Below, one piece after another: positions 1,379-36,037 of a DNA stretch of 36,037 nucleotides. Under the pieces are notes generated by a model. It made no database searches, was not told the origin of the DNA, and was given only the letters and a program-made list of their open reading frames with translations. Origin of the DNA: a virus; IMG/VR virus record IMGVR_UViG_3300021197_001882, positions 1-36,037 of that record. One strand, given 5' to 3'. Position 1 is the stretch's first letter; each line of letters begins with the position of its first letter. The translations under genes and the position numbers were made by a program.

Positions 1379-3892
1379 TTATGAGCCTCGTTCTATGTCT
1401 TGTAGTTTACGCAGTTCTCTTGCTACTATACTTCTTGGTGTTAATTGGTAGCCTGCTTCGCCTTCGTGTATGCCGTGGTTGCTCTTCGCTGTTGACCCTA
1501 CGCCTGCCATTGCTGCCATCTTTGCAATGCTTTCCGCCACTTCGTCTACTTCCTGAACTTCTTCAACTGTTTCGCCTACTAGTTTTCTAATCTTAGATCC
1601 TGAAACATAGTCTGGTAGTACTTTTTCAAGTGCTGCTTTAATATTATATGACTTCATTACTTCATTGCGGAATTCATTAGTAAATGGATATAGTTCCATG
1701 TCTGCTTCCATGTCTGCAATTACTTCGTCAATCTCTTGTGCTAGATCACTCATACGACCTTCACTTGCTACTGCAATGTCAGCATCGCCATCACCGTCAA
1801 TGTCTACCATTTCCCAATTATCACCTTTTGGATCCATGCTATCGCATTCACAATCTGTAGTAGGTTGTCCTAGCATATCACCGCAATGCTTACACTGTAG
1901 TGAACACATGCCTTCTGCAACTGCTTCTTCTTTTACTTTGTACTTTTTGCCGTCAACTTCAAATTCTTCTTTGCCGTCTTTTTTAGCCTGTGCTAGTGCG
2001 CCTGAGAATTCGTTACCTTCGTTTGGATCTTCTTTCATGTCGTCTGCATTACTGCCCATACGCTCGCCCTGTGTAGCACTTGTGTTTGCTGGCATGCGTG
2101 GGTTGCCAAACATTCTTGGGATAACCATTTCGCTGTCATTGCCGTCTGCACGAATCTTGTCAAGTGCTGCTCCCATTATTTCTTGGTACTTCTGCCCATA
2201 GTCATCAACGTGATCCATTAGCCATCCAATAATGATTGGACGAGCATCACCTTCTGGATCTTTGTCGCCGGCAACACCTAGGTCATCAAATAGTTCATCA
2301 TCCCCTAGTAAGCCGCCAAGTGCATTAGCGGCATCATCGCCGCCATCGCCTAGTGCAATAGGGTTAGCCATAATTGCTGCAAGTTTCATTGCTTCTGCTT
2401 CATTTTCTGGCAAACTCCAGGTACCTTCTGCAACCATATCCATACGTTGTGCATATGCTTCAAATTTAGTATCTTCAGTTTTGTCTTTGCCGTATAGATC
2501 TTTCTTAGCCTTAGGCTGTTGAATCTTTATTTTGCCCTGTAAATACTTCTTTGCAAGTTTTAATGCTATTGCTTGACTTGCTGCATCACCAAGATCAATG
2601 TCACTTGCTGTGTTTGCTGCCGCATCATTGGTCATATTATTTGACAAGTATTTCATAATAGCAACCAGAATACTGCGATTCTTTTTGCCTACTTCCATGT
2701 CGCTGTTCTTCATAAACTGCATATAATTTTTAAGTTCAGCAATGTCTGCTTCGTTATTATAGACTTCAATGTCATCATCATTGTCTGCAATGTCTGCCAA
2801 TGATTCAGCACCTTTAGCAGTATTAGCATCTGCTTTTGCATCCAAGTTTTTTGGCTCTTGTGGATCAATTGATCTGTCAAAATAAGGTTTGATTGGAGCA
2901 TCCATATCTTCTTCGTCACTGCCTTTTGCTTCCATGTTTGCTTTATAATCCATTGCTCGTCTCACACTTGCTAAACTATCTGTAAGTCTATCATCATACA
3001 CTTCACGGGTAAGTTTTTGTTTTAAGTCTTCGATATCGTTTTCTTCTACTTCAACTGCGCCAGGTACCCAGTTTTCAAAGTAGTCAGCATATCCTTTTGC
3101 ACTACTGATTGCTTTCAGTGTGTCTTTTAATCCATAGTATCTGTCGGTTGCAGCATCAATTACTTCTTGTGCATCCTCATTTACATACTCTTCACGCTTT
3201 ACACTACGCACAAAATGCTTTAGATCCTGCATTTCTTTCATAATCTCTACAATGTGTGTACCACGATCATCACGGGTGTGTCCTTCATTTGACACATGTC
3301 TTGCCATTGCTCTTGCACCTGGAAGATAGTTGTTAGCAAACTTAAAGCGTTCGCCTTCACTGTTCTCAATGTAGATAGCACTGATGTTGCGGCTTCTTGC
3401 ACCCTGCTTTGTTTCATCTACTGTGCCCTTATGTTTAATAATAAGTTTTGCTGTTCCTGTTTCAAGGAAACTTTTTTGGCTTGTTCCGTGTAGTCTGTTT
3501 TCCATCACTTCGTCCTGGTTACGTTGTGTTAAAAACTGATAATCTTTCTTATCAAGTCTCTCTTTTGTTACATTATGAGATTCATAGTTTAACATATTTC
3601 TTGCACTGAATCTGCTCAGTTCTTTTAAAAATCCATACCAAGCATCTGCTGTTCCACTATCTGCATCTTCAACCATACTGTTAGGAAAGTATACTTGTAA
3701 TACCCCTTCTTCGTTGAGGCTAATAGTGACTGCACCAACTGGCAAATCTCTGTGCTTAAAATTAAACTCGAAAAAACGAGCCTGTGCAGGATCTGTAGTT
3801 ACAGTGCCATCTTCGTTCCCCAACTTGATGCTACTAACACGACTACGAATCTTGTCAAAAAGTTCTTGTGATATATTTTCTACGCTTCTCAT
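1379..3892 (-). CDS. Large conserved T4-like phage protein with Cys cluster and acidic Ca-type loop
   Basis: An 837-aa protein. Its MRSVENISQELFDKIRSR start is of a type I associate with T4-like marine phages, but I do not know its function. It is soluble-looking, with no signal peptide or membrane segment, and is rich in acidic and Ala/Asp stretches in the middle (about 340-560). Near residues 660-685 there is a cluster CSLQCKHCG ... DCEC that could bind zinc, followed at about 690-700 by DIDGDGDAD, which looks like a dockerin or EF-hand calcium loop. It lies just downstream of gp17 and is followed by a strong terminator. A late promoter lies only 5 nt before its ATG, and no Shine-Dalgarno site is present. 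A structural or internal virion role is possible but unproven. Confidence 0.7.
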   Translation of the reverse strand: MRSVENISQELFDKIRSRVSSIKLGNEDGTVTTDPAQARFFEFNFKHRDLPVGAVTISLNEEGVLQVYFPNSMVEDADSGTADAWYGFLKELSRFSARNMLNYESHNVTKERLDKKDYQFLTQRNQDEVMENRLHGTSQKSFLETGTAKLIIKHKGTVDETKQGARSRNISAIYIENSEGERFKFANNYLPGARAMARHVSNEGHTRDDRGTHIVEIMKEMQDLKHFVRSVKREEYVNEDAQEVIDAATDRYYGLKDTLKAISSAKGYADYFENWVPGAVEVEENDIEDLKQKLTREVYDDRLTDSLASVRRAMDYKANMEAKGSDEEDMDAPIKPYFDRSIDPQEPKNLDAKADANTAKGAESLADIADNDDDIEVYNNEADIAELKNYMQFMKNSDMEVGKKNRSILVAIMKYLSNNMTNDAAANTASDIDLGDAASQAIALKLAKKYLQGKIKIQQPKAKKDLYGKDKTEDTKFEAYAQRMDMVAEGTWSLPENEAEAMKLAAIMANPIALGDGGDDAANALGGLLGDDELFDDLGVAGDKDPEGDARPIIIGWLMDHVDDYGQKYQEIMGAALDKIRADGNDSEMVIPRMFGNPRMPANTSATQGERMGSNADDMKEDPNEGNEFSGALAQAKKDGKEEFEVDGKKYKVKEEAVAEGMCSLQCKHCGDMLGQPTTDCECDSMDPKGDNWEMVDIDGDGDADIAVASEGRMSDLAQEIDEVIADMEADMELYPFTNEFRNEVMKSYNIKAALEKVLPDYVSGSKIRKLVGETVEEVQEVDEVAESIAKMAAMAGVGSTAKSNHGIHEGEAGYQLTPRSIVARELRKLQDIERGS

Positions 3893-3897
3893 ATGTG

Positions 3898-3904
3898 TAT
3901 TTAT
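3898..3904 (-). promoter_or_regulatory. T4-type late promoter, 5 nt from start codon
   Basis: CATAAATA on the minus strand, then CACAT, then ATG at 3892. With T4 late spacing, transcription would begin at or next to the ATG. A small hairpin (ATGCTT-ACC-AAGCAT, 3903-3917) lies at the promoter's upstream edge, overlapping the gp17 stop codon. Confidence 0.6.
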
Positions 3905-3916
3905 GCTTGGTAAGCA

Positions 3917-5482
3917 TTAAACCATTATGAATGGCATCGGGGCTTGATCGTAATCATCACCGTCTCGGATATGATTTTCAAGTTCTGGATTGTAACTTTT
4001 CAGCGTTTGTGCCATGCGCATTACTAGCATTGTACTCATAACAAGATCATCAGTGTCACCTACTTTTGCAGCGTAACTGTTACCACTAGCAATAAAACTT
4101 TTTAGTTCACTTATAAGCATCTTGCTTTTGATCTTTACTTTTTCTGTCTCTACCAGTGTTTTAAACTTGGCGCACACTGCAAGTTTACTGCGATGTGTAG
4201 TATTAAATCCTCTTCTAAATACTTTGCTATTGCCGTGTCCTCGAGGTTCACTTAAAAAGTAGCCAGGGATGTTTTCTTCGCCTATTTCATTGATACTTTG
4301 TAGTGCTGCCTCACCAATCGTATTGTTTTCAACACTAAAATACACGCTATTGTTATCGCCACACTTCTCCACTAGGTACTTGTTTATTTCTACAAGTATA
4401 CGAATTTGCTGAGGGATTGGAGTTTTATTATGACTCCATTCACCTACTTGCTCCATGCTAGGAACTTCAAATATTTGTATAGCGGCAGGATCACCGCCTG
4501 TGCCTAAACTCGGATCTAGCCCTACTAGATAAGCCATACCATGACTTGGTTGTTTGTACCAACGCACAGCACCGTGTCTAAATTGTGGATCTTCGCCACG
4601 CATATTAGTAAGTATCATACTGTCTATAAGTGTTTCGTCATAGATAATAAACTCACAGTCATGTTCTCGTCTAAAGCGTTCTTCCCCAATACGACCTAAT
4701 TCTTCTGCTTTCCAAGTTTCGTCTCTGTCTGGATGTTCCCACCAGTAACTTTGATAGCTCTTAAATCCATTTATACCAATGTCTGTTTCATTGCCTTCCG
4801 CATCAAACTGTTTGTTAGCATCACGCCAAATAGTAGCAAACTGATCCTCATCACTGTTGGGTGTGCTTGTGATTATGGCCTTACCACCTGTTGCTAGTGT
4901 AGGAGAAATACTTGTCCAAAACTCACGGGCAATGCTAGGACGCACAAATGCAAACTCATCACAGTACAGTAGTGTAATACTCATACCGCGTCCTGTGTTG
5001 TCCGTAGTTGCTTGTGCTACAATACGACTACCATTGTCAAAGTCTATACTGCCTTTGTTATAACTTGTTACACCAGCACGAATATGATTAGGACATAATT
5101 CGTATGCATAACGTATACGTTGCATAATCTCCTGCGCACCAGCATACTTGTGTGCTGCAATGAGAATTACACTGTCTGGTACAAACATTGCATACCACAA
5201 CAAGTACCCTGCTGCAGTTGTTGATTTGCCTGTTTGTCTAGGTAGCATATTAATGTTAAAGCGATAGTTGTGATATACATCCAGTAGTTTTGTTTGATAC
5301 TCAAACGCTTTATACACCATGCGCCCTTTGGTAGGATGCTGAATGTTAAAGAAGTTGTTCATAAAATACTGAGCACCATTAACAGGGTCTGCGCATTTTG
5401 CAAACTCTGTAAATTCTTCTTTAGTGAAATTTTCTTTTTGATGTGGCTTTTTTATAAGCACACCGTCTAGTGTTTTTGCCAT
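3917..5482 (-). CDS. 17: Terminase large subunit gp17
   Basis: This 521-aa protein is the DNA-packaging motor ATPase and headful nuclease. The Walker A motif LPRQTGKST is at about residues 80-88, and Walker B LLYCDE is at about 171-176 with catalytic E176. The C-terminal RNase H-like nuclease domain begins near VGLDPSLGTGGDPAA, where the Asp is a metal ligand. T4 gp17 is about 610 aa, and this copy has a shorter N-terminus. It acts at the prohead portal with gp16. The start at 5482 follows the stop of the Usg-like gene with a single base between them, suggesting coupled translation. The small subunit gp16 is encoded about 4 kb upstream rather than directly before gp17 as in T4, with six other genes between. 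Confidence 0.95.
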   Translation of the reverse strand: MAKTLDGVLIKKPHQKENFTKEEFTEFAKCADPVNGAQYFMNNFFNIQHPTKGRMVYKAFEYQTKLLDVYHNYRFNINMLPRQTGKSTTAAGYLLWYAMFVPDSVILIAAHKYAGAQEIMQRIRYAYELCPNHIRAGVTSYNKGSIDFDNGSRIVAQATTDNTGRGMSITLLYCDEFAFVRPSIAREFWTSISPTLATGGKAIITSTPNSDEDQFATIWRDANKQFDAEGNETDIGINGFKSYQSYWWEHPDRDETWKAEELGRIGEERFRREHDCEFIIYDETLIDSMILTNMRGEDPQFRHGAVRWYKQPSHGMAYLVGLDPSLGTGGDPAAIQIFEVPSMEQVGEWSHNKTPIPQQIRILVEINKYLVEKCGDNNSVYFSVENNTIGEAALQSINEIGEENIPGYFLSEPRGHGNSKVFRRGFNTTHRSKLAVCAKFKTLVETEKVKIKSKMLISELKSFIASGNSYAAKVGDTDDLVMSTMLVMRMAQTLKSYNPELENHIRDGDDYDQAPMPFIMV

Positions 5483-5483
5483 A

Positions 5484-5735
5484 TTATACTTCGTATACGC
5501 CTCGTAAATCTACATAGTCTGTACCGCCCCAGTAGTTTGTATGATACAAATATGCTTCTTGTATTACTGCATCTATATTCTTATGCCAGTAACGAATAAA
5601 CTTGACACTACGGGGGAATTCAGGTATAATATCATTTGTTTGCCAGACAAATTCGTTGATCAGGTGTACATGATCTGGCATATGGTAATAAACTTGAATT
5701 GAGACTAATTTGTCTCTATCAAAGCGTTTAATCAT
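5484..5735 (-). CDS. Usg-like family protein
   Basis: An 83-aa protein whose core, YYHMPDHVHLINEFVWQ, followed by a D-x-x-PEFP stretch and a KFIRYWHKNID stretch, matches what I know of the Usg family. That family comprises small alphaproteobacterial proteins named for a gene near the trp locus, with a characteristic YRMPDHPHLLQ.F.WQ.YD..P.FP pattern. Its biochemical role is not established. Here it lies immediately upstream of gp17 with a 1-base gap and is transcribed from a perfect TATAAATA late promoter 5 nt before the ATG, so it is probably made late with the terminase. A downstream Met (residue 19) would cut into the conserved core, so the first ATG is preferred. Family assignment is by recalled motif only. 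Confidence 0.7.
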   Translation of the reverse strand: MIKRFDRDKLVSIQVYYHMPDHVHLINEFVWQTNDIIPEFPRSVKFIRYWHKNIDAVIQEAYLYHTNYWGGTDYVDLRGVYEV

Positions 5736-5740
5736 AGTAA

Positions 5741-5748
5741 TATTTATA
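5741..5748 (-). promoter_or_regulatory. Perfect T4-type late promoter (Usg-gp17), near-palindromic
   Basis: TATAAATA on the minus strand, then TTACT, then ATG at 5735, which implies a leaderless mRNA. The site is nearly palindromic: the plus strand reads TATAAATT at 5745-5752, which could be a weak late promoter for the divergent HNH gene. Confidence 0.7.
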
Positions 5749-5779
5749 AATTAAAACTTACTAGGTAAATAATAATACA

Positions 5780-6331
5780 ATGAGCGATACACTCCTACTA
5801 AACACTAGTGGACAACCTATTAGTAGTTTTCCTGTAAGCACTATCAATTGGCAACGTGCAGTCAAGTTGTTTTTCTTAGACAAAGTAACTGTACTAGAAT
5901 GGTATGATGACTGGCGTATAAGCAGTCCAACAACTACAATGCAAGTACCTGCCACAGTAATGATCAAGCAGTTCCAAAAGATTGATCACAATGTTTGTTT
6001 CAACAGACACAATCTTGCAATTCGAGATGAGTATCGCTGCGGATATTGTGGACAAGAACACAACTTTCCTGACTTAACTATTGATCATGTTATACCTCGT
6101 AGTAAAGGTGGACGAACTACATGGACTAATACTGTAATTGCTTGCAAGCAGTGCAATGTTGCAAAAGGCAGCAAGCTCTGGAATCCGCGGCTGGAGCCCA
6201 AGACTCCAACATACTATCACATGGCGGCTCTTAGGAGCCGTTTTCCGTTTCATGTAAAACATGCTAGTTGGTTAGACTATCTTCCAAACGGGCAACTAGT
6301 TGATGCTGCTCCTCTAGCGCACTCTGCCTAA
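5780..6331 (+). CDS. HNH endonuclease
   Basis: A 183-aa protein with a classic zinc-braced HNH core: CGYC at residues 87-90, IDHVIPRSKGG with catalytic H103, N117, and CKQCN at 122-126. The order CxxC-DH-N-CxxCN fits the HNH/McrA-like nucleases that nick or cut DNA. The N-terminal 85 residues (VLNTSGQPI-like start, then RAVKLFFLDKVTVLEWY) are typical of phage and bacterial HNH proteins of this length. It is on the plus strand against its neighbours and overlaps the convergent gene at 6264 by 68 bases. It could be a free-standing homing-type nuclease or a nuclease assisting packaging; HNH proteins beside terminases do the latter in HK97-like phages. The upstream region has only a weak AGG ribosome site. 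Confidence 0.85.
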   Translation: MSDTLLLNTSGQPISSFPVSTINWQRAVKLFFLDKVTVLEWYDDWRISSPTTTMQVPATVMIKQFQKIDHNVCFNRHNLAIRDEYRCGYCGQEHNFPDLTIDHVIPRSKGGRTTWTNTVIACKQCNVAKGSKLWNPRLEPKTPTYYHMAALRSRFPFHVKHASWLDYLPNGQLVDAAPLAHSA

Positions 6332-8788: not shown

Positions 8789-9286
8789 CTATTCTCCTTT
8801 TTTTGCAAACTCGTGTTTGCGTGTTTCTATAGTCTTAAGCATGTTTTCATTATACTCATCACCAAAACTATCTTTAGCATTGTTTGCATCTTCATAGTCA
8901 GTGTCTAACTTTGCTTCGTATTCTTTATCTTCTTCTTTTAGTGCTTCTTCGCGAGCAATTTCTTCAGGATGATCACTGTTAATGACTACTAAGTGACTTG
9001 CAGGAACACCAACTGTTTGACTAATATATTCATATAGTTGATGTGCAGTTACAGGATACTTTAGTTCTGCGTCCATAATAAACACTTCTGCGTTTTGCAG
9101 TGTTTGAAAATCCATGGGATGTTCTTGAATTGGAGTTTTCTTTGGCTTGCTGATACTTGCAACTTCGTACTTTTCAAGTGCAGATTCCAGTGCGTTCATT
9201 GTTTCGTCATCGCATTTTTCAGCCATTTTAATACGAAACTTGTATGTGTGTTCGCTTTCAACGAGATAACTCTTTAAACTTTTCAT
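8789..9286 (-). CDS. Conserved T4-like phage protein, unknown function
   Basis: A 165-aa acidic protein starting MKSLKSYLVESE, a helical N-terminus frequent in T4-like marine phage proteins of this gene neighbourhood. The middle part (about 60-110) has AEVFIMDAELKYPVTAHQL and VGVPASHLVVIN, suggesting a small alpha/beta domain. The C-terminal 45 residues are Asp/Glu/Asn-rich and probably flexible. It has a late promoter at 9311-9317 with an AAGGAAC ribosome site and is the first gene of a two-gene late unit with the acidic protein. I do not recognise a specific function; a virion-assembly role is suggested only by position between gp16 and gp17. Confidence 0.7.
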   Translation of the reverse strand: MKSLKSYLVESEHTYKFRIKMAEKCDDETMNALESALEKYEVASISKPKKTPIQEHPMDFQTLQNAEVFIMDAELKYPVTAHQLYEYISQTVGVPASHLVVINSDHPEEIAREEALKEEDKEYEAKLDTDYEDANNAKDSFGDEYNENMLKTIETRKHEFAKKGE

Positions 9287-9843: not shown

Positions 9844-10284
9844 CTAGCGTTTGCCGTTGTGAAAAATATCATCTTCTGTTACTACTCTAAAGCGTAGTCC
9901 ATTATGCTTTGCCCACTTTGCAGCCGCTTCCCACTTTGCGTGATTAATAGCAATAGTAAGTTTTTCCTTTTCGCGAGTCTTTTCGGTGAGCATGGTCTGT
10001 GCTTTGGGTTTGATTTCTATAAGTTCAGCATGCTTGTTGCCGCGTTTGTCTTGATACATTACAATAAAGTCTGGCACATATATTGTACCTTTGCCAGTAA
10101 GTGGATTACGATAAGGTATTGAAATTGCTTCACTAGCCCAACTTATTACACTTGGATTGTTATCACAAAAGCGCATAAATGCATGTTCCCATCCACTACG
10201 ATATCTAGGTTCTTTATTGCCGTTATATTTGCTAGGATTTGTTATGGTGTATATGCCATTAGCATATTTGTTACGACTAAACAT
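9844..10284 (-). CDS. 4: Head completion protein gp4 (TnsA-like nuclease fold)
   Basis: A 146-aa protein. It matches the pattern of T4 gp4 (150 aa): YTITNPSKYNG, RSGWEHAFMRFCDNNPSVISW near residues 28-48, then SIPYRNPLTGK, YVPDFIVMYQD and LIEIKPK. The E ... PDF ... EIKPK arrangement is that of TnsA/restriction-endonuclease-like folds. In T4 the protein completes the head after packaging and is thought to trim or protect DNA ends before the tail joins. It starts at the stop of the upstream gene (TAA then ATG) with a GGAGG ribosome site. Confidence 0.85.
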   Translation of the reverse strand: MFSRNKYANGIYTITNPSKYNGNKEPRYRSGWEHAFMRFCDNNPSVISWASEAISIPYRNPLTGKGTIYVPDFIVMYQDKRGNKHAELIEIKPKAQTMLTEKTREKEKLTIAINHAKWEAAAKWAKHNGLRFRVVTEDDIFHNGKR

Positions 10285-11993: not shown

Positions 11994-12611
11994 TTAGCCA
12001 GTAATAGTTTGACCTAGTGTTCTCGTTACCGCAGCACCAACGCCATCACCTAATGGTGATTGTACAGCATTGTCAAATCTAATACTCATTGCAACCGTTG
12101 CAGGTTCCTGACTTGCATAGTTAAGATCACCGTAGTTGATGTTCTGAATAAAGCAGCCGTATAGTTCCCAAGTCTCAAGCACACTTGGTGCGTTTGCACC
12201 ATTGCCGCCATCTAGAATTTCAAAGCGTGTGATAAATTTGTAGTCAATGCCTGAACTTGCACTGCTCTGCTCCATCATATCAAACTGCTTTTGTACTTGC
12301 TCTCCGCATAACTTTGTTACACCGCCGTTAACATCGTCACGTAGATTAACTGTAACCAAATCCCACTGATGTTTTCCAACCAAGTACACTCTACTGTTGT
12401 AAACAGGAATTTCAAACTCTTCAAATGTTACACTAGGGCGTGTAATATCCATAACCTGCTTAGTCATCTCTGTACGAGGACTACTAATACCAAAGTTCTC
12501 AAATGATGCACGGAAGCGGTATTTAAGTTTTGGCATAAGCAAGCCTTGACTTGCTGCACTCTGATCACCGTCTAACGGCACTGTAAACTTTGTTAATGAT
12601 GAAACTGACAT
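11994..12611 (-). CDS. 19: Tail tube protein gp19
   Basis: A 205-aa protein. Features include MPKLKYRFRASFENFG, a DITRPSVTFEEFEIPVYNS segment, VGKHQWDLVTVNLRDD, and a WELYGCFIQNINYGDLNYAS segment followed by AMSIRFDNA near the C-terminus. These match gp19-type tube monomers, which stack as hexameric rings inside the contractile sheath. T4 gp19 is 163 aa; marine relatives are often somewhat longer. The gene follows gp18 and its terminator and has its own late promoter at 12641-12647 and an AGGAGC ribosome site. High expression as a separate unit from the sheath is expected. Confidence 0.92.
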   Translation of the reverse strand: MSVSSLTKFTVPLDGDQSAASQGLLMPKLKYRFRASFENFGISSPRTEMTKQVMDITRPSVTFEEFEIPVYNSRVYLVGKHQWDLVTVNLRDDVNGGVTKLCGEQVQKQFDMMEQSSASSGIDYKFITRFEILDGGNGANAPSVLETWELYGCFIQNINYGDLNYASQEPATVAMSIRFDNAVQSPLGDGVGAAVTRTLGQTITG

Positions 12612-12640: not shown

Positions 12641-12647
12641 TATTTAT
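12641..12647 (-). promoter_or_regulatory. T4-type late promoter for gp19
   Basis: GATAAATA on the minus strand, 29 nt before the ATG at 12611, with AGGAGC as the ribosome site. Confidence 0.75.
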
Positions 12648-12661
12648 CTAATTCCAGTCAT

Positions 12662-15972: not shown

Positions 15973-15980
15973 TATTTATA
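15973..15980 (-). promoter_or_regulatory. Perfect T4-type late promoter for gp18
   Basis: TATAAATA on the minus strand, 39 nt before the ATG at 15933; AGGAAG serves as the ribosome site. Confidence 0.75.
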
Positions 15981-16041
15981 AGAACACCCATAAAAACACC
16001 TTATTTGGCGAATCCCTTTAAAGGTATGGTTAAATAAACAT

Positions 16042-16374
16042 ATGCAACGCCCTATTTGTGAGACATGTGGACAGCGTCCTAGAGCAATAAACTACTATAA
16101 GGATAAGCAACCTTATTTTAGGAAGAAGTGTGAACAGTGCTTAAAGTTGCACAAGCCTGTGAAGCCATTATGGGTTGACAGTGGATACAAAGTCAAACGA
16201 AACTGTGAGGCTTGTGGATTTAAGCCTGTGCTAAGAGCGCAAGTTGTTGTATTTTATATAGATGGAAATCTCAAAAACGTAAGCAACCGTAATCTTAAAA
16301 CAGTCTGCTTAAACTGCAACGCTGAACTTATTAGTACGGGATGGCACCGAGGTGACTTAACACCTGATGCCTAA
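16042..16374 (+). CDS. Zinc-binding protein with degenerate HNH-like core
   Basis: A 110-aa basic protein with four CxxC pairs: Cys6/9, Cys30/33, Cys55/58 and Cys89/92, enough for two zinc sites. The C-terminal half, CEACG ... YIDGNLKNVSNRNLKTVCLN then CN, follows the HNH pattern DGN..NNS..NL..LC..C, but the metal-binding/catalytic His before DGN is replaced (VVVFYIDGN) and the final His is Asn. It may be a catalytically dead HNH relative used for DNA or RNA binding. It is on the plus strand and overlaps the convergent dNMP kinase gene by 44 bases. A palindrome, CCTTTAAAGG (16015-16024), lies just upstream and includes the likely AAAGG ribosome site, though at long spacing. Confidence 0.7.
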   Translation: MQRPICETCGQRPRAINYYKDKQPYFRKKCEQCLKLHKPVKPLWVDSGYKVKRNCEACGFKPVLRAQVVVFYIDGNLKNVSNRNLKTVCLNCNAELISTGWHRGDLTPDA

Positions 16375-17746: not shown

Positions 17747-18897
17747 TACTTTACTGCCTTAAGGATAACAGTATCAGCGTTGATACGTCCGTTGAGTTTT
17801 GTCTCAACACCTTTAATATTGTCTAAGAACTTACGCAGTTGCACTTTACCACTTTTGTTAAAGTCTGATAGTTGTTGCTCTGGCTTGCGCAGTGTTTTTG
17901 CAATACTTTGCTTCTCGTCAAAAAACTGTAGCGTAGTACCTTTGACTTGTAGTGTAGCATGTTCTTCGGCGACATACTTGCCAATCTTGCGTGTCTTTAC
18001 ATTAAACACCCAAACTTCACTAGCATCAATAATCTCAACAGGATTTATGCTGGCTACTTTATACTTTTCGTCGGTTTTGCAATACTTCATTTTTGCTACC
18101 AACTTATCAGCACTCTTAGGCTTGGGTGTGCGTGTCTTACGAGTTGCTTTGCTTTCTGCTGTAATAAGATCACAAGCACCTAATATGCCACTAAACAATG
18201 TCACGCCACGCTTAATGGCTGCTTTGTCCAAGTGTGCATATCCTTCACGCAAATCTTCGTCTTGTTCACGAGCAGGTTGCTGTAGCATAATATACTCTGC
18301 TAGTGGACCTTCGTAGAACGCACGGATATGTCTAGCATGTGCTTGATTAACATTTAGTTTACGGAATAGTTTGACAGCGTCCAATCCTTTAAACTTGTCC
18401 GGATTGTTAATAAAGTCATCAACTGCTTCTTCAATCTCTGCAATAATATTGCCGCTTGCTTCCTTAATACGATCTTGGATGCTAGGCACATAAACATTTT
18501 TAGGCTTTTCTGCTTCCACTGCTTTGACTTCTTCAACAATAGATTCGCCTTTTTCTGCAAGAGCACCAAATCTACCTGACATCCAGTTGTGACTGTCCTC
18601 AGGAACTTGATCTGCCTTGTCATTAACCATATAATGACAGTAACAAGCAATATGACTGAATGCCATACTAGCATCACTATTTTTCAGAATGTATGTTGCA
18701 GTTTTTTTATCGTAAAACTTTTTTACATACAGTCTGATAATAGGCACATATTCCTTCTTATCTACATCAAAGTGAAAGAAGTCCTTGGCAACTTTGTAGT
18801 TGTCCAGGGGTGCAGCACCAGCGCCAGTTGTTTTACGGCGAGCCTTGGCTGCTTTTTTACGCTTGACTGGTTTACCTTTAAGAGCGGTTAATGCCAT
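17746..18897 (-). CDS. Conserved basic phage protein, unknown function
   Basis: A 383-aa protein. The N-terminus is strongly basic (GKPVKRKKAAKARRKTTG), which suggests nucleic-acid binding. It is followed by NYKVAKDFFHFDVDKKEYVP and a region like IKHYVKKFY...A.YILKN, a pattern I associate with T4-like marine phage proteins of unknown role. Residues 135-215 look helical. Residues 260-275 are again Lys/Arg/Pro-rich (RKTRTPKPKSADK). The C-terminal third has alternating strands (VWVFNVKTRKIGKYVAEEH). It is the last gene of a three-gene operon with a sigma70-type promoter at 19313-19340, and it overlaps the upstream gene by 20 bases. Early expression is therefore likely, unlike the surrounding structural genes. 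Confidence 0.7.
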   Translation of the reverse strand: MALTALKGKPVKRKKAAKARRKTTGAGAAPLDNYKVAKDFFHFDVDKKEYVPIIRLYVKKFYDKKTATYILKNSDASMAFSHIACYCHYMVNDKADQVPEDSHNWMSGRFGALAEKGESIVEEVKAVEAEKPKNVYVPSIQDRIKEASGNIIAEIEEAVDDFINNPDKFKGLDAVKLFRKLNVNQAHARHIRAFYEGPLAEYIMLQQPAREQDEDLREGYAHLDKAAIKRGVTLFSGILGACDLITAESKATRKTRTPKPKSADKLVAKMKYCKTDEKYKVASINPVEIIDASEVWVFNVKTRKIGKYVAEEHATLQVKGTTLQFFDEKQSIAKTLRKPEQQLSDFNKSGKVQLRKFLDNIKGVETKLNGRINADTVILKAVK

Positions 18898-19063
18898 CGT
18901 TCATAAACTCCAATTCCATTTGTGTTTCAAAAATACTTATATCCACTTGCTTAATCTCAATCATCTTTTCAATCAAACTAAGTGTTAGATTCTTACTTAC
19001 ACCATTACGAACACCATGTGCAATACACTCAAGGTCTTCGATATCTTTCAATAATTCATTCAT
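18878..19063 (-). CDS. Small helical protein, second gene of early operon
   Basis: A 61-aa protein, mostly predicted helix (ELLKDIEDLECIAHGVRNGV, then LSLIEKMIEIKQVDISIFET). Function not recognised. Its ATG overlaps the TAA of the upstream gene (TAATG), and its end overlaps the 383-aa gene by 20 bases, so the three genes are translationally coupled. That arrangement is the main evidence that it is real. Confidence 0.6.
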   Translation of the reverse strand: MNELLKDIEDLECIAHGVRNGVSKNLTLSLIEKMIEIKQVDISIFETQMELEFMNDGINRS

Positions 19064-19312: not shown

Positions 19313-19340
19313 AATATAGCACCTTTTGAGGATGTGTCAA
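19313..19340 (-). promoter_or_regulatory. Sigma70-type early promoter
   Basis: TTGACA (19340-19335) is separated by 16 bases from TATATT (19318-19313) on the minus strand. The start is expected near 19306, about 28 nt before the ATG at 19278. The -35 box overlaps the TGA stop of the Smr gene. No late-type NATAAATA is seen before this operon. Confidence 0.75.
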
Positions 19341-19561
19341 CCTTTTTTAAGAGATATCTTGTAACTTCCTGGATTATTTGCGTTTGTCCATGCTATAACG
19401 TGGGGATGTTGCGCACACCAGCTCTGAAACTCATGCATAATAGCACCTTGCCCTGTAACAACAACCACAGTGCGTTGCTTATTATAGTATGCATCTGTTA
19501 TCCTACTATTAAATAGATTCCAAGCAGAGTGTATATTATGTCCATGTAAGTCAAGTTTCAT
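19337..19561 (-). CDS. Stand-alone Smr-domain protein
   Basis: A 74-aa protein that is essentially one Smr domain, as found at the end of MutS2 and in small bacterial proteins. The LDLHG motif is at residues 3-7 and TGQG at 36-39, with a helix (SAWNLFNSRITDAYY) between them and a terminal SYKISLKK strand. Smr domains have nicking or RNA-cleaving activity and in other systems act on branched DNA or on mRNA of collided ribosomes. The Met is only three residues before the DLHG motif, so no later start is possible. The late promoter TATAAATA is just 6 nt before the ATG and there is no Shine-Dalgarno site. Confidence 0.82.
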   Translation of the reverse strand: MKLDLHGHNIHSAWNLFNSRITDAYYNKQRTVVVVTGQGAIMHEFQSWCAQHPHVIAWTNANNPGSYKISLKKG

Positions 19562-19567
19562 CGAGGT

Positions 19568-19575
19568 TATTTATA
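19568..19575 (-). promoter_or_regulatory. Perfect T4-type late promoter for the Smr gene
   Basis: TATAAATA on the minus strand, then ACCTCG, then ATG at 19561, implying a leaderless or nearly leaderless mRNA. It is back-to-back with the plus-strand late promoter at 19580. Confidence 0.7.
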
Positions 19576-19579
19576 AGCG

Positions 19580-19586
19580 ATAAATA
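19580..19586 (+). promoter_or_regulatory. T4-type late promoter for gp14-gp15
   Basis: GATAAATA on the plus strand, 20 nt before the ATG at 19607, with AAGGAATAG as the ribosome site. It starts only four bases from the divergent Smr promoter. Confidence 0.75.
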
Positions 19587-19606
19587 CTACGCAATAAGGA
19601 ATAGAT

Positions 19607-20788
19607 ATGCCAAGAATTTCACTATGGAAAGACGGTGCTCATACCAACGATTATCGCTTCTTCGACAGACGAATGAAGGAGATGTTTACGATTGGTGGGA
19701 CTGGTATCAATGTACACAAATATTTGGGTGTAGCAGGTCAAGGCGGAAGTGATCCTAGCCAACCTAACTATCAAGAACCTGATCCATTGGGCATACAAGA
19801 TTTCTTATTCTTAGAGAACAGAGACAGAGTATACGATCAAGACATCTATAGTTTGCGTGGTATATACAGCGTAAGCGATACAGACTTTGATTTAAGTCAG
19901 TTTGGTTTGTTTCTAGCAAATGATACATTGTTTATTACACTCCACGAAAATGATATGCTAAACAATCTTGGACGCAAACTTATGTCAGGTGATGTTATTG
20001 AATTGCCACACCTAACAGACTTTAGCGCACTGGACGAAAGTGTAGAACTAAGCCTCAAACGCTACTATGTTGTACAAGAAGGTAGTCGCCCAAGTGAAGG
20101 ATTTAGCCCAACTTGGTGGAGTCATTTGTGGCGCATTAAGTGTACACCACTAGTAGATGCACAAGAATACAACGATATTCTTAATGTACTGCAGGAAGAT
20201 AGTGATGGTAACACCACAGACAATACGCTTCGTGACTTGCTTAGTACATACAACAAAGAACTTGAGATTTCAAACAAGGTTGTTGCTGCTGCAGAAGCAG
20301 AGGTACCAGAGAGTGGCTATGATACAAGTCAATTCTATATTGTTCCTACTGATCCAGTTACTGGCAGACCACTAGAATCCAAAGGTGTTAATGCTGATAA
20401 TACTGTGCAAAATGCAGACAGTACAGATGCAAGTGCAGATGCTAGACGCATTACGCCTACTAACACCAATGCTTATAGTGGTTATTTGATCGGTGATGGA
20501 CTTGCTCCTAATGGTGAACCTATTAGTATGGGTACTAGTTTCCCAAGTGACAGTCAAGAAGGCGACTTTATATTACGCTTGGACTTCCTACCAAACAGAC
20601 TGTTTAGATACAGCGGATCACGTTGGATTAAAGTAGAAGATGATGTGCGTAGTAAACTTACACCGGGCTCAGGCTCAACACAAATGGATGGATTTATTAA
20701 TAACACAAGCACATTTACTGCAGACGATAACACTACTGCAACCAGTAGACAGTCGCTTAGTGATGCACTGAAACCTAGAGAAGATTAA
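19607..20788 (+). CDS. 14: Neck protein gp14
   Basis: A 393-aa protein. After RISLWKDG and DYRFFDRRMKEMFTIGGTGI, the central part has FGLFLANDTLFITLHENDML and LMSGDVIELPHL, then WRIKCTPLVDAQEYNDIL. This is like the gp14 pattern in which a weakly conserved N-terminus leads into a GD-x-I-x-x-P segment and a W/Y-rich strand. The C-terminal segment, GDFILRLDFLPNRLFRYSGS followed by RWIKVED, is familiar from marine T4-like gp14 proteins. T4 gp14 is 256 aa, so this is a long form. It partners gp13 in the neck. Its last base overlaps the gp15 start (TAATG), the usual 14-15 neighbourhood. Confidence 0.68.
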   Translation: MPRISLWKDGAHTNDYRFFDRRMKEMFTIGGTGINVHKYLGVAGQGGSDPSQPNYQEPDPLGIQDFLFLENRDRVYDQDIYSLRGIYSVSDTDFDLSQFGLFLANDTLFITLHENDMLNNLGRKLMSGDVIELPHLTDFSALDESVELSLKRYYVVQEGSRPSEGFSPTWWSHLWRIKCTPLVDAQEYNDILNVLQEDSDGNTTDNTLRDLLSTYNKELEISNKVVAAAEAEVPESGYDTSQFYIVPTDPVTGRPLESKGVNADNTVQNADSTDASADARRITPTNTNAYSGYLIGDGLAPNGEPISMGTSFPSDSQEGDFILRLDFLPNRLFRYSGSRWIKVEDDVRSKLTPGSGSTQMDGFINNTSTFTADDNTTATSRQSLSDALKPRED

Positions 20789-34813: not shown

Positions 34814-35461
34814 TTAAAAAATTAATCCGTATACGATGGCTTTAGATTTACTTACAAGTTCGTCACTAGTACTGCCATCTACAAAGTACACGCCTGTGCC
34901 ACCACCAGCCGCTGTGTCTGCATACAGCAATGTTGCACCTGTTACACTGCTAGGGACAACTGACTGATCATTTAATTTAAGCGCACTTGCAACTGTTACT
35001 TTGCCAGTTCCACTTGGTACCAACTGAATATCTTCATTGCTTACTGCACTAACGATATTAAATCCGTTAGTTTCTAAATCTCCACCAAGTTGTGGACTAG
35101 TATCATCTACAACTACTGTTGATCCTGAACTACTAGTAACCATTATGTTTGTGAATGAAGAGCCTGCATCTAAACTTATTTTAAATTTATCATCTGCTTC
35201 ATCAAAAACAAACTGTGCATTTGCAACGCTACCACGATCAATTTCAATACCAGATTTGCCTGCACCGCCACTAACACCTGCACCTGACTCACCATCATTG
35301 TAAACAACAATGTTATCTTTAATAGCCGCATTGGTTGTTGATACAGTTGTGGTTGTGCCGCTAACTGTTAAGTTACCAGTAACAACTAATGCACTGTCGA
35401 TGGTAGTACCACCGCTGGCAGTAATTGTATATGCTCCACCGATTCTTTTTGTTTGACTCAT
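34814..35461 (-). CDS. Fibre-cassette structural protein (215 aa)
   Basis: A 215-aa protein. It starts MSQTKRIGGAYTITASGGTT and continues with LTVSGTTTTVSTTNAAIKDN and a DRGSVANAQFVFDEADDKFK module. Both of these also occur in the N-terminal half of the 938-aa fibre protein. The middle has TSPQLGGDLETNGFNIVSAV and IQLVPSGTGKVTVASALKLN, typical of marine phage fibre proteins. It has a late promoter at 35485 and an AGGAA ribosome site. A virion adaptor or short fibre role is likely. Confidence 0.7.
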   Translation of the reverse strand: MSQTKRIGGAYTITASGGTTIDSALVVTGNLTVSGTTTTVSTTNAAIKDNIVVYNDGESGAGVSGGAGKSGIEIDRGSVANAQFVFDEADDKFKISLDAGSSFTNIMVTSSSGSTVVVDDTSPQLGGDLETNGFNIVSAVSNEDIQLVPSGTGKVTVASALKLNDQSVVPSSVTGATLLYADTAAGGGTGVYFVDGSTSDELVSKSKAIVYGLIF

Positions 35462-35476
35462 TGTATAAATTCCTGC

Positions 35477-36037
35477 TTATAGATTATTTATCACTTGTGA
35501 GAACTCAGTCAAATACATGGTTCTAAAATTATTATGTTGCATCCATCTAATACTAGTAAACTCATGCAATGGATTAACATGCACTATGTTTTTATAGGGA
35601 AATTTTGTAAGCAATGTACTAATTTGTGTCTCCCAACTGCCCCAATATGTTGGCGCACTTTCTTTACTCTTGTAATGTTCAGTACCAGCGTATATATTGT
35701 TTATAAAGTTATGTTGTCCTTTAAGATCGAATCCTATTAAAAAAATATACTCTGCGTCAGTCAAACAAGCAAGTCCACACGCAGCAGGCCCACTGCTAAA
35801 ATTATGTATTAATTGTGGTAATATCCTAGCACCACTGTGTTCTATAATATACTGTTTGCGTGAGTAGTGCTGGCGTCTTTTACTATACCCATTTTGTTGT
35901 ATTTCATGTGACATACCTCGATCTGTGCTTACTAGTACAGTGGGTTCAAACTCCTCATATATTCTATTACAGCCATAGACTTTCCCTCGCTTTAATAGTT
36001 CCTCTGGAACTACTTCTAAACGTGTTACGCCATTACC
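35477..36037 (-). CDS. GN-x-x-x-R / YGCN-family protein, glycosyltransferase-like (copy 2, partial)
   Basis: The reading frame is open to the right edge of the window, so the N-terminus is missing. The in-frame ATG at 35914 is internal. Visible parts are GNGVTRLEVVPEEL, VYGCNRIYEEFEPTVLVSTD, then HSGARILPQ, SSGPAACGLACLTDAEYIFL and IGFDL. They match the GNSKSR, YGCNLLYKDFIPTFLVAIN, GSAGNLALRLACADG and IFMVGM parts of the gene at 22577, so the two are paralogues. The function is inferred as a sugar-transferase-like Rossmann protein of the DUF115/GT42 sort. It lies upstream of the fibre cassette on the same strand, and its end contains the late promoter for the next gene. Confidence 0.62.
   Translation of the reverse strand, partial: GNGVTRLEVVPEELLKRGKVYGCNRIYEEFEPTVLVSTDRGMSHEIQQNGYSKRRQHYSRKQYIIEHSGARILPQLIHNFSSGPAACGLACLTDAEYIFLIGFDLKGQHNFINNIYAGTEHYKSKESAPTYWGSWETQISTLLTKFPYKNIVHVNPLHEFTSIRWMQHNNFRTMYLTEFSQVINNL
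35485..35491 (-). promoter_or_regulatory. T4-type late promoter for the 34814-34053 structural genes
   Basis: GATAAATA on the minus strand, 23 nt before the ATG at 35461, inside the 3' end of the upstream gene. Confidence 0.7.

Follow-up and report, generated by a model that had tools for sequence, protein, structure and literature searches.

The window analysed here, an IMG/VR virus contig of 36,037 bases, is part of a marine T4-superfamily myovirus and encodes terminase, tail sheath (matching phrog_10581 with an E-value of 1e-205), head closure, head-tail adaptor and tail tube proteins. The genes and late boxes under discussion are listed in Table 1. The terminase start codon lies one base past the stop of the Usg-like gene, to which its translation is probably coupled, and the 837-aa gene starts 24 nt past the terminase stop. 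On the other side, the start codons of the Usg-like gene and the divergent HNH gene are separated by 44 bp. Two intergenic regions of 44-45 bp (5736-5779 and 19562-19606) each hold two opposed late boxes between divergent genes.

Table 1. Late boxes and associated genes in the window.
Feature	Position	Strand	Remarks
837-aa virion structural protein gene, putative leaderless	1379..3892	-	phrog_13484 6e-19
Late box CATAAATA, T4-type, of 837-aa gene	3898..3905	-	5-nt gap 3893-3897 (CACAT), ATG 3892
Terminase large subunit gene	3917..5482	-	PF03237 4.8e-19; without own box
Usg-like gene, putative leaderless	5484..5735	-	PF06233 4.5e-18, residues 9-68
Late box TATAAATA, T4-type, of Usg-like gene	5741..5748	-	5-nt gap 5736-5740 (TTACT), ATG 5735
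Variant box GGTAAATA of HNH gene divergent from Usg	5764..5771	+	8 nt to ATG; predicted 3-nt leader ACA
HNH endonuclease gene, putative near-leaderless	5780..6331	+	PF14279 1.2e-15, PF01844 5.4e-15
GATAAATA of 205-aa gene 11994-12611, leadered class	12641..12648	-	29-nt gap, TTAGGAG; contrast case
TATAAATA of tail sheath gene, leadered class	15973..15980	-	39-nt gap, GAGGAAG; contrast case
Variant box GTTAAATA of 110-aa HNH-like gene 16042-16374	16029..16036	+	5 nt to ATG
Smr-domain gene, putative leaderless or 1-nt leader	19337..19561	-	PF01713 2.1e-10
Late box TATAAATA, T4-type, of Smr gene	19568..19575	-	6-nt gap (ACCTCG), ATG 19561
GATAAATA, leadered late promoter of 393-aa gene 19607-20788, divergent from Smr	19579..19586	+	20 nt + AAGGA; contrast case

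An 8-bp box close to TATAAATA was found at three window sites, its first letter varying, with variants in the two HNH genes. The boxes of the 837-aa, Usg-like and Smr genes lie where the first-pass annotation had placed them, at gaps of 5, 5 and 6 nt; it was right to group these three genes but overlooked two probable members, the HNH gene and the HNH-like gene on the plus strand. The latter, judged by its N-terminal motif and not by alignment, looks like a member of a six-member family with 4-5 nt spacing. The remaining late boxes of the window are 17-62 nt from the ATG, with a Shine-Dalgarno (SD)-like site in most. These numbers had been reported as leader lengths; they stand as box-to-ATG gaps, and the leaders would be about 5 nt shorter. 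Among the genes with such boxes, the 205-aa gene is a probable tail tube gene from its position beside the sheath.

A perfect sigma-70 promoter (TTGACA-17-TATAAT) occurs at 5602-5630 (+), antisense within the Usg-like gene and facing the HNH gene; in relatives the first hexamer stays TTGACA (or TTAACA) and the second is mostly TACAAT or TATAAT, although the Usg codons constrain the same letters. Residues 664-718 of the 837-aa protein, which lie in its C-terminal half, are 67% identical to a stretch of a protein of locus L004 that looks like a homologue of the 165-aa virion protein (window 8789-9286), a segment common to two structural genes. For the 837-aa protein itself we found no Pfam match and no PDB sequence relative, and its model was of low confidence (pTM 0.32) and gave no fold matches. 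A host search among genome contigs with the Usg protein returned one weak match only.

Relatives were gathered by their Usg and terminase proteins, together with several large contigs, and the gap between ATAAATA and the first ATG was measured for 1,841 non-overlapping ORFs on 98 sequences (1.69 Mb); since loci were picked by terminase or Usg, the 837-aa and Usg families are over-represented in these counts. The spacing was bimodal across the 98 related loci, in agreement with the separate class put forward in the first-pass annotation: the box stood at 4-8 nt in 147 genes, at 9-13 nt in one and at 14-35 nt in 134, compared with 5.4, 7.7 and 22.2 genes, respectively, for 18 permuted A5T2 7-mers. 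Gaps of 4, 5, 6, 7 and 8 nt were seen in 26, 83, 7, 22 and 9 genes, where the permuted motifs predict about one each. The second mode is broad (16-32 nt), and most genes in the 14-35 nt range have SD sites. When the upstream 20-mers were shuffled in 200 rounds, the mean was 7.4 and the maximum 14, against the 147 observed among 1,827 genes, and the reverse-complement box did not occur 4-8 nt before the ATG in any of these genes. The permuted motifs and the shuffles together rule out a chance origin of the short-gap boxes. Counted by family, ATAAATA is found at 4-8 nt in 43 families of the marine and pelagiphage set.

The 5-6 nt spacing, on whose presence in relatives the first-pass annotation had staked its reading, was kept in the individual families. 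A gap of 4-7 nt is found in 64 of the 74 distinct loci of the 837-aa family (exactly 5 nt in 41), and C or T stands directly 5′ of the ATG in 63 of these 64; gaps of at least 19 nt, mostly with the variant CTAAATA, are found in eight loci, so the short arrangement is not essential. When 17 diverse loci of this family were aligned, ATAAATA and the ATG were invariant, while the box lay at varying distances from the terminase stop. Mapped on a tree of 92 terminases, short spacing is the state of 79 and requires five changes. All 24 Smr relatives have a gap of 5-6 nt. Among close Usg homologues the spacer letters differ but its length stays at 4-5 nt. Homologues of the window's HNH gene carry AATAAATA 8 nt before the ATG, and where a different gene takes the place divergent to Usg, its gap is short as well. 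For the gene after terminase in three cultured jumbo relatives (PA5oct, Phosso and Atu_ph07), the box stands some 20 nt or farther upstream, together with an SD-like site. One 837-aa homologue (L064) has an ATG 5 nt past the box that opens a short out-of-frame ORF overlapping the assigned start, 19 nt past the box; either a leaderless upstream ORF or an error of sequencing may account for this.

Among cultured phages, short-gap genes number 11 in the SAR11 phage HTVC008M, seven in the SAR11 phage Mosig and three in the OM43 phage Melnitz, with controls of 0.2-0.6 across the cultured members. P-SSM2 and PA5oct have one each, which is the chance level, and no box was found 4-8 nt before an ATG in T4, KVP40, Syn9, S-PM2 or phiM12. 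All three have a short gap at the gene for the DNA end protector (HTVC008M 18392-18916, Mosig 106113-106670, Melnitz 61670-62263), whose products form one family that is annotated thus in HTVC008M. A gp55-type late sigma factor (phrog_234) is encoded by HTVC008M, Mosig and Melnitz and by the two large relatives G001 and G002; in the window, a 36-kb fragment, no gp55 was seen. The same three phages encode ribosomal protein bS21 (HTVC008M 91237-91392, Mosig 9983-10132, Melnitz 35461-35619), which is absent in T4, Syn9, KVP40, S-PM2, P-SSM2 and phiM12. We rejected bS21 as an explanation of the class, since PA5oct has it without the class and it was not found in G001-G003, G005 and G006.

The T4 late box occupies positions -13 to -6 (PMC2988020), so that a 5-nt gap places +1 on the A of the AUG. 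The leadered promoters agree with this box position: a purine peak lies at +6 from the box end in pelagiphages (87%), in T4, KVP40 and PA5oct (76%) and in cyanophages (79%), and is less clear in the marine set (64%). If the A is +1, the base before the ATG is expected to be a pyrimidine, and in the non-redundant set it is one in 86% of the short class versus 55% of the leadered class and 48% of other genes. Position 5 is a pyrimidine in 30 of 32 gap-5 families and an A in all seven gap-7 families, and position 6 is a purine in all four gap-8 families. Smr starts have A or G before the ATG instead of a pyrimidine, a point against the leaderless reading. Applying a pyrimidine-purine rule to all spacers gave leaders of 0 nt in 117 sequences, 3 nt in 31 and 1-2 nt in six, compared with 82, nine and 41 for shuffled spacers; the rule was derived from the same data, and the 0-or-3-nt pattern is thus a lead and not a result. 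Leaders of 1-2 nt are rare beside those of 0 or 3, as though it mattered in which frame the AUG stands relative to the 5′ terminus. At 4-6 nt after the box the start codon was ATG in 137 cases and never GTG or TTG, which matches the AUG preference of leaderless initiation described in Escherichia coli and Caulobacter (PMC9031893). An SD site was found in none of 68 short-class genes versus 56 of 78 leadered ones, a difference that is partly forced because the box occupies the place of the SD site.

We consider it very probable that gp55-dependent T4-type late promoters fire on the A of the AUG or 3 nt before it in these genes, giving leaderless mRNAs that would be translated by 5′-terminal AUG initiation. 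With a gap of 4-5 nt, RNA polymerase would start on the A of the AUG, and with a gap of 7-8 nt three nucleotides before it, leaving no space for an SD site in the resulting mRNA. This reading (a leader of 0-3 nt) is based on the conserved spacing, the empty 9-13 nt zone, the exclusive use of AUG, the pyrimidine before the A, the +6 purine peak and the common late sigma factor. Comparative sequence thus lends strong support to the leaderless late mRNAs that the first-pass annotation had proposed, and from it we strongly infer the 5′ ends and the translation mode of the short-gap genes.

Another possibility is that the AT-rich box acts in the RNA, as an S1-binding or unstructured signal for SD-less initiation within longer transcripts, and is not a promoter. 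The lack of SD sites in the short class would fit, and SD-less mRNAs with unstructured starts have been described in Caulobacter (PMC4117421). However, the letters are identical to those of the late box that leadered genes use at a distance, and permuted 7-mers of equal composition are not enriched. The spacers also show pyrimidine-A at the predicted start, with the 9-13 nt zone empty, and genes with the box more often have a divergent gene upstream, a trait shared with leadered promoters (30 of 120 short-gap genes versus 230 of 1576, p=0.001), so that we regard a translation signal as improbable. The same neighbourhood bears on whether the boxes could be real but auxiliary, the main source being read-through mRNAs, coupling or reinitiation after the upstream gene. 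Ninety of the 120 short-gap genes follow a same-strand gene at a median gap of 15 nt, the 837-aa gene begins 24 nt past the terminase stop, and in same-strand arrays such as that of the 837-aa gene upstream read-through could yield longer mRNAs. A mainly auxiliary role nevertheless leaves the fixed spacing unexplained, a leadered box would do equally well, and the divergent pairs Usg/HNH and Smr/393-aa gene have no same-strand gene upstream; we judge it quite improbable.

Misassigned start codons, with the true starts downstream behind a normal leader, are a further alternative, the starts having been assigned from sequence and not by N-terminal protein sequencing. Yet the aligned 837-aa family shows an invariant M1 and a conserved N-terminal region, the domain match starts at residue 9 in Usg and at residue 3 in Smr, and the same ATG begins all Smr homologues, which makes such an error highly unlikely.

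Returning to promoters that fire at or just before the AUG, the gene content of the class suggests a role. Short-class families include HNH and homing endonucleases, 2OG oxygenase, superoxide dismutase, metallophosphoesterase, radical SAM, CsgF, Smr, Usg, DNA end protector and a gp25-type baseplate protein, whereas the leadered families include the major head protein, portal, tail tube, head protease and several baseplate proteins. The short class thus consists mainly of accessory or low-copy genes, and abundant structural genes fall in the leadered class with SD sites, a trend and not a tested difference, as both lists share homing endonucleases, a baseplate wedge family and tail tube matches. 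Box, spacer and AUG, about 20 bp in all, would be the smallest late expression unit, one that would fit a gap of about 15 bp or stand back to back between divergent genes. The short-gap unit could then serve as a minimal late cassette for genes that are accessory or needed at low dose, while abundant structural genes would retain the leader and SD site. The first-pass annotation had supposed that initiation by intact 70S ribosomes lets the short-gap genes escape late-infection control; we found no evidence of such an escape. Leaders with SD sites stay with the main structural genes, accessory or low-copy functions prevail in the short class, and a minimal late cassette is the better fit. The observation itself is broader than that annotation had it. 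A possible, still tentative extension is that a large marine branch of T4-type phages uses one late sigma factor for two late translation programmes, an SD-led one for abundant structural genes and a leaderless one for accessory or low-copy genes (with leaders of 0 or 3 nt and avoidance of 1-2 nt), in which promoter position alone would set the dose and the 20-bp cassette would admit new genes.

Late transcription in T4 is a textbook system in which the ribosome site is carried in the leaders. The promoters described here share with the gp55-dependent late promoters of T4 the box (T/N)ATAAATA and a predicted start 6 nt downstream, and gp55 has a homologue in each of the three cultured members as well as in the two large relatives. 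They differ from those of T4 itself, where the late genes near terminase have farther boxes and SD sites. Late mRNAs without leaders are known from the lytic Thermus phage phiYS40 (PMC3594737). However, that phage and its host are unrelated and its promoters are of another kind, and most of its middle and late mRNAs are leaderless, while here a subset is predicted to be so beside SD-led ones. Alphaproteobacteria also have leaderless mRNAs (375 in Caulobacter and 171 in Sinorhizobium), which in Caulobacter are translated as well as leadered ones (PMC4117421). An AUG at the 5′ end is common to these and, by prediction, to the phage transcripts, but the bacterial examples are host genes read with host sigma factors. 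Our search of the open-access literature, with subscription papers outside its scope, found no report of leaderless late mRNA in T4-type phages.

A study of pelagimyophages did not find late promoters using cyanophage methods (PMC7029224), and the short-gap class may have a bearing on why they were missed. Since HTVC008M, Mosig and Melnitz are in culture, the leaderless reading is directly testable. If it is true, the annotation of start codons and promoters would change, and promoter position would serve as a translational switch in phages that infect the most abundant bacteria of the ocean.
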